DNA of 22,214 nucleotides, from IMG/VR virus record IMGVR_UViG_3300044940_000232, positions 1 through 22,214 of that record; one strand, given 5' to 3'. Each line of letters opens with the position of its first letter. Positions within the stretch are counted from its first letter, which is position 1. The notes beneath the pieces are model-generated. The model did no database searches, was not told the DNA's origin, and saw only the letters and a program-made list of their open reading frames with translations. Shown one piece after another: positions 10,218 to 15,567 of this stretch. The position numbers and the translations under genes are program-made. This DNA is from a virus.

Positions 10218-10751
10218 ATGGCCGAGCTCGTCACCACCGCCCTAGTCGGCAGCGCCGCCACCGCAACCAGCGCCGCCACCGCCGGGCTGATCGGCGCGGG
10301 CGGGTCGGTCACGCTGGGCGGCGTCCTGTCCAGCGCGCTGGCGCTGGGGTCGGCCGGCCTGTCGCTGGGCGGCGGGCTGGCCCAGTCGCGCGCGTTGCAG
10401 GCGCAGTCGCAATGGCAGGAGTTCCAGGCCGGGCAAGAGGTGCTGCGCGGCGAGCAGGAAGCCAACCGCGTGCGCGAGACCCTGCTGCGCACGCTGGCCA
10501 GCAACAACGCCGGCCGCGCCGCCGCTGGCGTGGAGCTTTCCGGCTCTGCCCTCGATGTCGACGCCGAGGCCGCCGCCGCCGCCGAGCGCGAGCTCGCCAT
10601 CGTCAGCAACAATGCCGCCGCGCGGGCCGGCGCGACGCGCGCGGCCGCCCAGGCCTCGCGCGCCTCCGCCAGCAGCGCAATCATCGGCGGCATCGGCAGC
10701 GCGGCCGGCAGTTTGTTCAACTACGCCAGCCGCGTCAGGCGCATCGGCTGA
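10218..10751 (+). CDS. Internal virion (ejection) protein, T7 gp14-like
   Basis: This protein has 177 residues and starts one base after the nozzle stop. Residues 10-55 are Ala/Gly-rich and hydrophobic (for example LIGAGGSVTLGGVLSSALAL), followed by a Gln-rich helix ALQAQSQWQEFQAGQEVLRG and the SGVELSG-like segment AAGVELSGSALDVDAEAAAA. This arrangement is typical of the smallest podovirus ejection protein, which inserts in the outer membrane during infection as the first section of the DNA channel. A second hydrophobic patch SAIIGGIGSAAGSLFNYA lies at the C-terminus. Its stop overlaps the next start as TGATG. Confidence 0.87.
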   Translation: MAELVTTALVGSAATATSAATAGLIGAGGSVTLGGVLSSALALGSAGLSLGGGLAQSRALQAQSQWQEFQAGQEVLRGEQEANRVRETLLRTLASNNAGRAAAGVELSGSALDVDAEAAAAAERELAIVSNNAAARAGATRAAAQASRASASSAIIGGIGSAAGSLFNYASRVRRIG

Positions 10752-13129
10752 TGGCGCGCAGGCGGGCCATCATCCGTCAAGGCGGCCGCCCGATCGGCGC
10801 GGTGGCCGAGCTGGTGCGCGTGCCAGCCCTTTCCGGCGGCACCGCCGCCGCCGCCGCGGGCCTGGCCGACGAGCTGAACCGCGTGCTCGAAGGCCGCCTG
10901 CGCGCGGCCGAGGAGCGCGCCACCCGCGAGGGGCTGGAAGCCGGCCGCATGGTCGGCGTAGACGACCCCACCGCGCGCATGGACCCGGACACCGTGCGCG
11001 GGGCCGCGTTCAACCGCGGCGCCATCGAGACGGGCGCGCGGCGGCTTGAAACGCAGCTCCGCACGCGGCTGGACGAGCTCGCCCGCGAGCACACCGCCGA
11101 TCCCGGCACGCTGCAAGCGCAGGCCCAGGAGTATATCGCCGGGGTCGCGCAGGCGCTGCCCAACGACCTGCGCCCCCTCTTCCAGACCGCCGCCGAAACG
11201 GCGCTGCGCCCCTATGTGACGCAAGCCACGCGCGAACAGGAGCGCGCCATCGCCGACGAGCGGCTGGCAAGCTTCGAGGAGGTGACGCGCCAGCGCCTCA
11301 ACGACATCACGCGCAACGCGCGCAACGCCGCCGCCGACCCCGCCGCCGCAGCAGCGGTGCGCCAGGACCTCGAGGCCCTGCAGCTCGACCTGGTGGCGCT
11401 CGGCCCTCGCCATGCCTTCACCTTCCGCGGGCGCCGCTACGAGGCCGACCCGACGCGCGCGGGCGCAATCAGCCTGGTCCAGATGGAGCGGCAGCTTGCC
11501 GCCATCGAGCGTGAGACGGCCGAACAGGCCGCGCTCGGCGCCTATGAGCGGGGGCCGCGGACCAACGCCTGGATCGACGGATGGGTGCGGCGCGCGCGTC
11601 AGCTTGGCGTGCCGGGGCTGGATCAGGACGGCATCGACCGCCTGGAACAGCGCATGCGCACCGACGCCACCCGCCGCGAGCGCGCGGCGGAGCGGGAGCG
11701 GCAAGCGCAGCTGCGGCTGCTCGGCCAACAGATCACCGAGGCCAACAGGCTTGCCCTCGCGGGCTACATGCCCGGCAATATCGACGAGCTGCAAACCGCC
11801 GCCGCCGGCACGGAACTCGCCGACGCCGCGCGCGAGGTGCGCAACACGGCCTTCGAGATGCAGCGCTTCCGGATGCTGCCCGCCTCGGAACAGGCCGCCG
11901 CCATCGGCGAGCTTGACCAGCGGTTGCGCACGGGACAGGGCAGCCTCGACGACCTGCAGCGCCGCGACCGGTTGCTGCGCGTCTACACCACGCAGCAGCA
12001 AGCGGCGCAGGCGGATGCGCTGGCGGCCTTCGCGGCCGCGACCGAGACCCCCCTGCCGCCGCTCGACCTCACCAATCCCGAGAGCATGAATGCGCGCGTG
12101 CGGCTGGCCACCGAGGCCGCGGTGCATTTCGGCCTGCGCGGAGCCGCGCCCTTCACCGCCGCCGAGGCCAATCAACTGGTGGCCCGTTTCGCCGAGGCGC
12201 AAACGCCGCAGGACTTGGCCGCGGTGCTGACGCCCTTCCTGGATGCGCCCGCCCCCGTGCGCGCGGCCGCGATCCAGTTGTTCGAGCAGCAGCGCGGCGA
12301 CAACCGCCTGCCCGCGGGCACCATGGCGCTGGTGATGGACGCGATGCGCGATCCCGCGCAACGCCAACGCGCGTATGCCCTACTGAGCGGGCTGCTCGCC
12401 ACCGCGCCGCGAGCCGATCAAGCTGATGCGCCCGTCTTGCGCAGCGAAATCGAAAACAGCATGGACCAAGGGGTCAGCGGCGTGCGGCGCCACGCCATGC
12501 AGGCTTCGGGCGACATGCGGGCGTCCGCCTTGGACCACCGAGACCGCCAGTTGATTGAACGTCTGGCGCGGCAACAGACAGCCGCCGGCGTCGCGCCGCG
12601 CCAGGCCGTGGCCAATGCGCGGAACATGCTCTACGGCCACCTGCAGACAATAGACGAACGCAACTTCGCGCATGTCTACCTGCCGGCCACAGAGGACGCC
12701 AACACCTTCCGGCGCGGCCTGCAGGTGCTGCGCCTGGAAGCGGCCATGGCGGTGCTGCAGGCGCAGGAACCGCCGCGGGAGGGCGCGGAAGCGCGCGGCG
12801 ATGTCGTGGCCATCGAGCGCAGGCGCCAGCTCGACCGCGCCTTCGCCCTTTCCCGCCAGGGCGTATGGATCAACGACGGCAGCGGCTTCGCCCTCGTGGC
12901 GCCCGAGACCGGCGAGCAGATCGGCCTGCGCCAGCGCGTGCAGCGCGTCACGGTGGATGAGGTCCTGCGCGCCGGCCGCCGCGTTCAAGACGCCGACCGC
13001 GAGCTGCAGCGCCGCTTCGACCAAGAGTATGCCGCGCGTCTCCGCGCCCTGGAGCGGCAGAATGCGCGACAGCAGCCGCCGGTCAACGCGCCCAGCCCCG
13101 ACCCCATGCAGCCCATCATCGCGCCATGA
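10751..13129 (+). CDS. Internal virion (ejection) protein, T7 gp15-like
   Basis: This protein has 792 residues, close to the 747 of T7 gp15. The ATG at 10751 shares a base with the previous stop; the longer upstream reading is out-of-frame shadow. It starts with a basic segment (MARRRAIIRQGGRPIGAV) and is then almost entirely alpha-helical, with many Ala, Arg, Gln and Glu residues and no visible enzyme motif. That fits the tubular second component of the ejection channel. Later landmarks are QGVSGVRRHAMQASGDMRAS near residue 580 and VWINDGSGFALVAPETGEQI near residue 705. The C-terminal 30 residues are Pro/Gln-rich. The assignment rests mainly on size, composition and order, not on a diagnostic motif. 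Confidence 0.87.
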   Translation: MARRRAIIRQGGRPIGAVAELVRVPALSGGTAAAAAGLADELNRVLEGRLRAAEERATREGLEAGRMVGVDDPTARMDPDTVRGAAFNRGAIETGARRLETQLRTRLDELAREHTADPGTLQAQAQEYIAGVAQALPNDLRPLFQTAAETALRPYVTQATREQERAIADERLASFEEVTRQRLNDITRNARNAAADPAAAAAVRQDLEALQLDLVALGPRHAFTFRGRRYEADPTRAGAISLVQMERQLAAIERETAEQAALGAYERGPRTNAWIDGWVRRARQLGVPGLDQDGIDRLEQRMRTDATRRERAAERERQAQLRLLGQQITEANRLALAGYMPGNIDELQTAAAGTELADAAREVRNTAFEMQRFRMLPASEQAAAIGELDQRLRTGQGSLDDLQRRDRLLRVYTTQQQAAQADALAAFAAATETPLPPLDLTNPESMNARVRLATEAAVHFGLRGAAPFTAAEANQLVARFAEAQTPQDLAAVLTPFLDAPAPVRAAAIQLFEQQRGDNRLPAGTMALVMDAMRDPAQRQRAYALLSGLLATAPRADQADAPVLRSEIENSMDQGVSGVRRHAMQASGDMRASALDHRDRQLIERLARQQTAAGVAPRQAVANARNMLYGHLQTIDERNFAHVYLPATEDANTFRRGLQVLRLEAAMAVLQAQEPPREGAEARGDVVAIERRRQLDRAFALSRQGVWINDGSGFALVAPETGEQIGLRQRVQRVTVDEVLRAGRRVQDADRELQRRFDQEYAARLRALERQNARQQPPVNAPSPDPMQPIIAP

Positions 13130-15567
13130 CCGAGCTGCTCGACATCGCGCCACAGGGCCGCACCATCGACCTTGCAACCTACGCTTGGCGCGGCGCGGCC
13201 CCGCCCTCAAGCCTTGGCGACTTCCTCGGCGCCATGGTCGCGGAGGGCTGGTGGGGAAGCCTGGCCGGCCAGTTCTTTGCGCAAAGCGACGCCGCCCGCG
13301 CCGATGACGGCGACCTGTATCGGACCGAGCGCGAGTGGCGGCAGAGTCCGGAATACCGCGAGGGCCTGCGCTACGAACCCGGGCTGACCCGCGGCCGCGC
13401 GCGCTTCAACGCCGCCCTCTACGATGAGCGACGCGCGCGCGAGGACCTGATCCAGCGCCGCAACGCAGGCCTGGGCGAAACCGTGCTGGGCTTCGGCGCG
13501 GCCATGCTGGGCGGGGTCGCCACCCCCGAAAACTTCATCCCCTTTGTTGGCCCCGCCTGGCGCGCCGCGCAGATCGCGCGCTTCGGCTCGATCGGCGGCC
13601 GCGCGGTGGCGGGCGCGGCCGATGCCGCCATCGGCACGGCGCTGGTCTCGCCGCTGGTCATCGGCAGCATGCGCCAGTTCGGAGACGATGTCGGACCGGC
13701 CGACGTGCTGCTCGACATCGCCATGGGCGCCGCCATCGGCTCGGTTCTGGGCGCCGGCTCCGGCATGCTGGCCCGCTGGACCGGCCGTGACGCCAGCCTG
13801 TTCGCCAGCCAGCAAACCTACGCCGCCGCCGCGCGGCAGCTCGACGAGGCCGCCGGCGCGCTGGCAGAGGGCCGGCCGGTGCGCGTCGACCCAAGCCTGC
13901 TGCGCGAGATCGAAGCGCTGCGCGGCCAGGTGGCCGAGCTCCATGCCGCGCGGGAACAAGTGCTCGCCGCCGCCGAGGCCGCCCGCCGCGCCGCGGACGC
14001 AAGCGGCCGGCTGGCAGATATCGGCCCTGGCGTCGAGGTGCGCGTCCGCGCTGGCGCTGACAGCGATATCACCTTCGCCGTGCGCTATGAGGTGGTGGAG
14101 GCCGACACGCTGATCACCAGCCACGCGCTTGACGGCCAGATCAACCCAGCCTTCGACCAGACGCTGCAGATCCGCCAGCGGGACCGCAACGCCTCCTTGA
14201 TCGCCACGCGCCAGCGCGCTTCCAACCTCGACCCGGCGCAGCTTCTTGCCTCGCCGCTCGGCTCGACCGGCGCGCCGATCGTCGCGCCCGATGGCACCGT
14301 GGAGTCGGGCAACGGCCGCACCTTGTCCCTGCGCCTGGCTTACGCCGAGAACATGCCCGGCGCGCAGGCCTATCGCGACACGCTGGCCCGCCTTGGCTTC
14401 GACGTGGCTGGCATGCGCGAACCCGTGCTGATCCGCCGCCGCATCGAAGACTTCCCCGACGCCGAGACGCGCCGCCGCGCCGCCGACGACATGAACCGCG
14501 ACGTGGTGGAGCGTAAGACCGCCGCCGAGGACGCCGCCGCCGACGCGCGGCTGCTGACCCCGGCGGTGGTGGCCGAGCTCCGCCCCGGCGCGCTGACCTC
14601 GACGGCCAATGCCGGCTTCGTGCGCGCCTTTGTGGCCGCGCTGCCCGCGCCCGAGCGCGCCGCCATGACCGCGCCCGACGGCACCCTCTCGGCCGACGGG
14701 CTGCGCCGGCTGGAACGCGCCGTGCAGGCCGCCGCTTACGCCGACCGCAGCCTGGTCGCGACGCTGCTGGAAGACCCATCCGATGAGCTGAACCGCCTCG
14801 GCCGCGTGCTCAAGGGCGCCGCGCCGTCGGTGCTTGCCTGGCGCTCGGCGGTGGCAGAGGGGCGCATCATACCGCAGCTGGACGGCACGCAGGACCTTGT
14901 CGCCGCCGCGTTGCTGATCGCCAATGCGCGCCGCCAGGGCCGCCCGCTCGCCGAGCTGCTCAACCTGCCTGCCGACCTGCTGGGCGACGGCCCAACCGCC
15001 GCAACGCGGTTGTGGCTATCGCTCATGCTGGACCGGCGCGTGAACGGCACCGCCGTCATCGCCGACCCCGACAAGATCGCGCTGCGCGTCGAGGCCGCCC
15101 GCCGCCTGGCCGAGGACAGCCCGCAGACGCCCGACATGTTCGGCCAACCGCCGCCCACCATCCGGTCGGTGCTGGCGACGGTGCACATGCGCGAGGGCAT
15201 CGACCTGCCGTATCTGCCCGACGCGATCCGCGACTTCAGCAGCCCGCCGCCGCGGCCGCTTGACGGCCCGCCCGCCGAGCCACCGCCGCCGCCCCGCGCC
15301 GCAGTCACCTCGGTTGCCTCGGTCGCGCAACAGTCGCCGACCGGTCGCGACCAAACCGCGATGGGCGCCGCGGCGCTGACCGCTCGCCACGCCGACCCCG
15401 AGCTGGACCTGATCGCCGCAGCCGTCGACGATCTCGCGCGGGCCGGGAGGCTCACCGACATCGACGTTGAAACGCTGCGCGCCGGCAACCGCGCGGGCGA
15501 CCAGGCCGAAGCCATGGCCGCCGGGCTTGAGGCCGCCGGCGCGTGCATGATCCGGGCGGTGCTGTAA
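13126..15567 (+). CDS. Ejection protein with ddrB/ParB-like domain (polyvalent-protein type)
   Basis: This 813-residue protein has ATGA overlap with the previous gene. Residues 115-215 contain three Gly/Ala-rich hydrophobic stretches (around LGFGAAMLGG, AADAAIGTALVSPLVIG and IAMGAAIGSVLGAGSGM) as expected for an internal virion protein that enters membranes. Residues about 315-440 match the ddrB-like ParB superfamily domain: QINPAFDQTLQIRQRDRNAS, then GAPIVAPDG and the hallmark ESGNGRT at 393-399. A helical extension to about residue 660 (LSADGLRRLERAVQAAAYAD and onward) also fits that family. A Pro-rich linker lies at 705-725 and a helical tail ends AGACMIRAVL. ddrB-ParB domains are known from polyvalent proteins delivered into cells with phage or plasmid DNA. 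That this one is ejected and acts on DNA is inference. No transglycosylase motif is seen. Confidence 0.9.
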   Translation: MTELLDIAPQGRTIDLATYAWRGAAPPSSLGDFLGAMVAEGWWGSLAGQFFAQSDAARADDGDLYRTEREWRQSPEYREGLRYEPGLTRGRARFNAALYDERRAREDLIQRRNAGLGETVLGFGAAMLGGVATPENFIPFVGPAWRAAQIARFGSIGGRAVAGAADAAIGTALVSPLVIGSMRQFGDDVGPADVLLDIAMGAAIGSVLGAGSGMLARWTGRDASLFASQQTYAAAARQLDEAAGALAEGRPVRVDPSLLREIEALRGQVAELHAAREQVLAAAEAARRAADASGRLADIGPGVEVRVRAGADSDITFAVRYEVVEADTLITSHALDGQINPAFDQTLQIRQRDRNASLIATRQRASNLDPAQLLASPLGSTGAPIVAPDGTVESGNGRTLSLRLAYAENMPGAQAYRDTLARLGFDVAGMREPVLIRRRIEDFPDAETRRRAADDMNRDVVERKTAAEDAAADARLLTPAVVAELRPGALTSTANAGFVRAFVAALPAPERAAMTAPDGTLSADGLRRLERAVQAAAYADRSLVATLLEDPSDELNRLGRVLKGAAPSVLAWRSAVAEGRIIPQLDGTQDLVAAALLIANARRQGRPLAELLNLPADLLGDGPTAATRLWLSLMLDRRVNGTAVIADPDKIALRVEAARRLAEDSPQTPDMFGQPPPTIRSVLATVHMREGIDLPYLPDAIRDFSSPPPRPLDGPPAEPPPPPRAAVTSVASVAQQSPTGRDQTAMGAAALTARHADPELDLIAAAVDDLARAGRLTDIDVETLRAGNRAGDQAEAMAAGLEAAGACMIRAVL

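Follow-up and report, generated by a model that had tools for sequence, protein, structure and literature searches.

How podophage ejection proteins exit the head in order, hold together across the envelope, and are released in the cytoplasm is unsettled. The IMG/VR virus record IMGVR_UViG_3300044940_000232, analyzed over its whole length of 22,214 bases (the window), raises this question through a gene predicted to place a ddrB/ParB-like polyvalent domain inside the DNA-ejection machine. What is this domain, and might the protein that carries it be joined to another?

The genes around this protein, termed P3, run in the order terminase, portal, scaffold-like, capsid, tail tube, nozzle, gp14-like, gp15-like, P3, P4 (phrog_684), tail fiber, and GH108 endolysin. 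Four of them, P1 to P4, are consecutive internal virion genes, and these genes and all features described below lie on the plus strand. P1 (10218–10751) is a gp14-like small internal virion protein of 177 aa without cysteine that matches the phrog_418 internal virion protein (E 2.7e-8). P2 (about 10748–13129) is a gp15-like internal virion protein by its position and by its relatives in the same slot. Its probable start is residue 113 of the ORF at 10412–13129, and no cysteine follows from that start. P3 (13126–15567, 813 aa) is the ddrB-ParB ejection protein, and P4 (15567–18170, 867 aa) is a phrog_684 ejection protein (E 9.6e-150). The ATG of P4 overlaps the TAA stop of P3 (15565–15567) by one base. 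The original prediction had called P3 the third internal virion protein, and the gp14-like and gp15-like genes before it and the phrog_684 gene after it bear this out.

With its place in the nozzle, gp14-like, gp15-like series ahead of phrog_684, P3 occupies the slot of epsilon15 gp16 and of Alcaligenes phage Piluca gp047, and the gene order of the window is that of epsilon15 gp14–gp17 and of Piluca. Genes at the same place before the phrog_684 gene were found in epsilon15, phiV10, VP5, Tr60_Ab31, YA3, SPN1S, 69E27.1, pelagiphages, Piluca, and TPWB-05. In several relatives (L010 3498–3962, L014 4662–5117, and L096 545–1009), the nozzle gene is separated from the gp14-like gene by a GNAT acetyltransferase-like gene, and the window has none between 10216 and 10218.

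The ddrB-ParB domain of P3 and its predicted fold

PF18763 (ddrB-ParB) matches residues 315–439 of P3 (14068–14442) at 101.6 bits, where the cut-off is 27.6 (E 4.1e-29, Pfam), far above chance. The ddrB-ParB signature had been placed at 14068–15105 (residues 315–660), and its motifs QIRQRDR (residues 348–354), GAPIVAPDG, and ESGNGRT (residues 393–399, 14302–14322) are all present. The helical extension that was thought to accompany it (14443–14949) is conserved together with the core: relatives align over about 300 residues (alignment A3, 63 sequences), the helices are modeled with pLDDT mostly of 85–97, and PHROG 5143 matches residues 317–686. PHROG families without assigned function carry the P3 match out to about residue 686. 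In the same prediction, membrane-active stretches preceded the domain. Hydropathy does place two hydrophobic peaks (about residues 161–179 and 194–212) in a part of the N-terminal module (residues 161–212, 13606–13761) that is helical and either hydrophobic or amphipathic. Membrane activity itself is weakly supported, this region being modeled as helix at low confidence.

Residues that are invariant in the 63 aligned domains include, in P3 numbering, Q348, R350, R352, G382, P384, E393, S394, G395, N396, R398, Y416, R439, E468, D473, and N495, with N457 nearly so. At 14167–14184, the family motif LQPRDR has become LQIRQRDR in P3, in which both invariant arginines (R350-Q-R352, 14173–14181) are kept and the conserved D is lost. 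The two nearest relatives of P3 read LQIRERDR at this motif. The published description of the family gives it a highly conserved arginine in the pocket and an additional helix that bears a conserved tyrosine (PMC5512222). R398 of GNGR, R350, and R352, all invariant in the 63 sequences, are the candidates for this arginine, and the invariant Y416 lies in model helix 411–422. tblastn against phage records returned P1 DdrB and its kin (about 34–35% identity over about 260 residues), Acinetobacter and Alcaligenes podovirus proteins, and others. Relatives of the domain are found in at least 578 viral-contig stretches and in prophages of Rhizobium, Brucella, Azospirillum, Acinetobacter, Halomonas, and others. 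The P3 domain is a confirmed member of the published ddrB-ParB family, located in a podovirus ejection-protein gene.

The ddrB-ParB domain itself is not new, because a 2017 paper (PMC5512222) had already described the family with hypotheses of DNase and NTPase activity, its phage late-gene setting, its virion link, the packaged P1 prototype (DdrB in the head), and an Acinetobacter prophage lysozyme fusion. With hundreds of viral contigs carrying the domain, its description as an uncharacterized system was overstated. No report of NTPase or DNase activity of any ddrB-type domain was found in the literature examined. P1 DdrB shares the domain with P3. It resides in the head of the virion, where its listed role is "Aids DarB addition to capsid" (PMC9024508), and it is dispensable for plaques (PMC10695390). 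P1, however, is a myovirus whose DdrB has a metallopeptidase-like C-terminus (PMC5512222) and accompanies DarA, DarB, Hdf, and Ulx, whereas the P3 domain lies inside a podovirus ejection protein. None of these four companions was found among the 10 proteins of the 22-kb fragment scanned with Pfam and PHROGs.

No solved relative was found by sequence for P3 or for the ddrB domain alone. An AlphaFold2 model of residues 311–610, built on the 63-sequence alignment, reached a mean pLDDT of 89.7 and places ESGNGRT at a strand-to-helix turn (strand 391–394, helix 396–407). The best Foldseek match of the model was a pNOB8-like ParB N-domain (E 0.011). In a second comparison with VIA-align, the best 13 rows (Z 8.2 to 5.0, 87–140 residues) were ParB, Noc, PadC, or sulfiredoxin only, and the next, unrelated row had a Z of 4.3. 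The domain is therefore ParB/Srx-like by prediction, and the ParB resemblance proposed earlier stands at the level of the modeled fold.

A profile link to CTP-binding ParB did not hold. hhalign against 18 ParB-type sequences from six bacterial genomes gave a probability of 3% and an E of 0.015 with misaligned motifs, and a direct sequence link was rejected on this profile comparison. ParB_N (PF02195) gave no Pfam match in P3. CTP-binding ParB/Noc, PadC, and sulfiredoxin are thus like the P3 domain in predicted fold but differ from it in having no significant sequence-profile match. Given this outcome, the correspondence seen by eye between the QPR, GERR, and ENxQR boxes and LQxR.R, GNGR, and N457 is a lead only.

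The P3 slot and its varied effector domains

P3 combines one recognized effector domain with an ejection module, and relatives in the slot add PBECR, Zeta toxin, ART, SLT, or LPD23. A Pfam scan of 103 P3 proteins from the slot returned ddrB-ParB in 52, Zeta toxin in 12, and PBECR3/PBECR1 in 5, and also SLT, ART-PolyVal, and LPD23. The ddrB-ParB count is high mainly as a consequence of gathering many of the loci through that domain. When P4 was used to gather non-redundant pairs, ddrB was a minority (4/41, 0/8, and 1/11 isolates). Zeta-toxin-type kinase domains are common cargo (L032 6252–9386, L056, and ten ddrB-free P3 proteins in set A8). In one further P3 relative (P0017 of L005), ddrB is separated from the N-terminal module by about 170 additional residues (about 331–510), in which no Pfam family scored above cut-off.

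Because the slot carries ddrB-ParB, Zeta toxin, PBECR, ART, or SLT/lytic transglycosylase domains in related podoviruses, the middle of P3 looks like an exchangeable effector bay. The idea that the domain is injected cargo gains support from this swapping of other polyvalent-type domains into the slot. We infer that P3 is located in the virion, is ejected, and acts as an effector, its ejection into the host being read from the gene slot alone. Among the closest known systems, the Acinetobacter prophage lysozyme plus ddrB-ParB proteins and Piluca gp047 share with P3 the slot, the order of ddrB, the sole C-terminal cysteine, and an adjoining P4. They differ in carrying an SLT domain before ddrB, whereas Pfam finds none in P3. 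Epsilon15 gp16 has the slot in common with P3, but no ddrB domain was found in it.

Paired sole cysteines of P3 and P4

The unexpected part of this analysis lies outside the ddrB finding and is its stronger result. P3 has a single cysteine, C807, 7 residues from its C-terminus (codon 15544–15546), and P4 has a single cysteine, C6, near its N-terminus (codon 15582–15584). These matched sole cysteines, which the original prediction had missed, are conserved whether or not P3 carries ddrB. In a first set, all 39 of 39 ddrB-slot proteins had a cysteine 5–17 residues from the C-terminus, in most the only one. Their P4 neighbors had a cysteine near the N-terminus, usually sole, and the gp15-like P2 proteins were mostly without cysteine. 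Counted over 98 P2 proteins, 87 have none. Epsilon15 gp16 has its sole cysteine 6 residues from the C-terminus, and epsilon15 gp17 has its own at residue 5. As annotated, 11 of 12 ddrB-free isolate phages carried the pair. The exception, APEC gp5, was traced to a late annotated start, and an upstream GTG restores MRKEC.

Over all loci, 230 P3–P4 pairs were collected, corresponding to 108 non-redundant pairs and, at 40% identity, to 28 P3 and 17 P4 clusters. Both cysteines were automatically in place (at most 17 residues from the P3 end and at most 20 from the P4 start) in 227 of the 230 pairs, and in the other 3 after inspection. These 3 comprised a start-codon call (L142), a split P4 frame (L297), and an inserted gene with both cysteines kept (L129). 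The inserted gene of L129 (8506–9184) encodes a 226-aa cysteine-free protein between P3 and P4, so adjacency of the P3 and P4 genes is not required. Phages with the pair include epsilon15, phiV10, VP5, and pelagiphages.

Cysteine is otherwise nearly absent from these proteins. Outside the termini, the non-redundant P3 proteins hold only 12 cysteines (83,003 aa) and the P4 proteins only 2 (90,404 aa). Nozzle ORFs from these loci contain about 8 per 1000 residues, a figure slightly inflated by the use of stop-to-stop ORFs. Across 51 ddrB-free P3 proteins, whose mean identity is 11%, the nearly invariant positions are limited to M1, one proline, and the terminal cysteine, and in 52 ddrB-bearing P3 proteins the terminal cysteine is invariant. 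Cysteine depletion is expected in proteins that pass the portal unfolded. Since ejected proteins are otherwise depleted, the one cysteine kept at each facing terminus calls for a reason.

Single-chain counterparts of P3 and P4 were compared with the split form. L018 encodes a 2131-aa ddrB-RadC-P4 protein with 0 cysteines, whose P4 region was detected by hhalign (97.9%, E 3.7e-12). T7 gp16 is a single 1318-aa chain with an N-terminal transglycosylase domain and no cysteine, whereas P3 and P4 are two chains with one cysteine each. We know of no ddrB domain in T7 gp16. In a five-sequence search, the P3 N-terminal profile matched T7 gp16 at 324–461 (E 2.6e-7) and the P4 profile at 1096–1152 (E 4.4e-7), against E of 0.57 and 0.26 for a reversed gp16 control. 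Against all PDB sequences, the P4 profile ranked gp16 first, with an E of only 0.013. In the collection, T7 gp16 is L343 6596–10552, where the P3 and P4 profile matches fall in order, as if in a one-chain form. At the level of sequence, the single-chain comparison draws on L018 and on these T7 gp16 matches, which are short and low-scoring (15.7 and 17.9 bits). The absence of cysteine from T7 gp16 would be expected anyway, because T7 gp15 and P22 gp7, gp20, and gp16 have no cysteine at all.

Other phage types encode giant, cysteine-free ddrB-ParB proteins that reach 4355 aa (L040, L043, L047, L058, L068, and others). As support for a single-chain form, the giant ddrB proteins (1300–4355 aa, mostly 0 cysteines) were rejected, only L018 having a detectable P4 region, and their lack of cysteine fits no more than the depletion common to ejected proteins. 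Four seeming fusions with P4 were stop-to-stop artifacts.

A putative disulfide between P3 and P4

We infer that a disulfide joins P3 and P4, which would together act as a split gp16; the sequence evidence leaves this bond evenly balanced between right and wrong. A P3–P4 bond is favored because the two genes are translation-coupled, the P3 stop and the P4 start sharing 1 or 4 bases in 75 of 108 pairs, and because the single-chain forms (L018 and T7 gp16) lack cysteine. It is favored also because neither a third protein with a matching conserved cysteine nor a conserved histidine metal site was found in these loci. Against the bond, the virion is assembled in the reducing cytoplasm, so the disulfide would need later oxidation. 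No report of such a disulfide between the P3–P4 pair was found in the literature on internal virion or ejection proteins, which was limited to open-licence sources, so its novelty is unproven. The strings "cystein" and "disulf" are absent from an ejection-protein review (PMC8954989), a T7 core paper (PMC11784390), and a PhiM1 ejectosome paper (PMC11440229), and "cystein" is absent from an epsilon15 paper (PMC12391199).

The terminal cysteines might instead not be bonded to each other, and serve in homodimer links, in lipid or metal attachment, as a redox sensor, or in docking to another virion protein. The rings formed by ejection proteins make like-with-like cysteine contacts plausible, and L129 keeps both cysteines across its intervening gene. 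A possible third partner in some phages is the gp14-like protein, which starts Met-Cys in T7 gp14, epsilon15 gp14, and phiV10 gp17. It is not a general partner, however, because it is cysteine-free in VP5, Tr60_Ab31, YA3, APEC, 69E27.1, and the pelagiphages. A metal site at the terminal cysteines was tested and is unsupported, histidine being absent from the last 25 residues of 100/108 P3 and from the first 30 of 87/108 P4. The position of the two cysteines, at the ends where neighboring, translation-coupled genes face each other, also speaks against separate roles, which we consider a real possibility of about one chance in three. By comparison, it is highly improbable that nucleotide signals at the junction, where the two genes overlap, account for the cysteines. 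The frequent stop/start overlaps would suit such signals, but the codons of both cysteines are mixed TGC/TGT, which indicates selection on the residue and not on the nucleotides. The distance from the P3 cysteine codon to the P4 start also varies widely, and the pair survives the gene inserted in L129.

A different question is whether the ddrB-ParB domain has any task in the new host cell. It could be structural, loading or ordering virion proteins, as the listed capsid role of P1 DdrB (PMC9024508) and its dispensability for plaques (PMC10695390) would allow. A purely structural role explains poorly why the pocket residues (R350, R352, E393–N396, R398, and Y416) are invariant and why the slot otherwise carries catalytic families such as Zeta toxin and PBECR. 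We regard this role as unlikely, at about one chance in four.

The best overall explanation, which we hold with no more confidence than doubt, is that of an ejected P3 with an effector bay, a ddrB cargo, and a disulfide to P4. P3 would be one of four proteins that an epsilon15-like or T7-like podovirus stores in its head and ejects ahead of the DNA. Its N-terminal module would belong to the ejection machinery, its middle would form the effector bay, and its C-terminal helix would end in the single cysteine. The cargo here would be a DdrB-type ParB-fold domain, most likely nucleotide-binding or nuclease-like, with the entering genome or host defense as its putative target. Most likely, the cysteine at the P3 C-terminus would be disulfide-bonded to that at the P4 N-terminus, giving one covalent unit equivalent to T7 gp16. 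This bond would arise away from the reducing cytoplasm, either in virions after release or, as ejection proceeds, in the periplasm. The host cytoplasm would then cut it and free the effector part. The wider proposal, that epsilon15-like and related podoviruses have a gp16-type protein split in two chains with an end-to-end disulfide staple and that redox times effector release, falls somewhat short of an even chance.

If true, a covalent link that is cut by redox would give a concrete mechanism for ordered exit, cohesion across the envelope, and release, one that can be tested by gel in epsilon15 as well as in this phage. In the effector-bay view, ddrB-ParB, Zeta-toxin, PBECR, and ART domains would share one delivery carrier. 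This view would also offer a search route for injected anti-host or anti-defense domains, in the region between the N-terminal module and the C-terminal cysteine helix.
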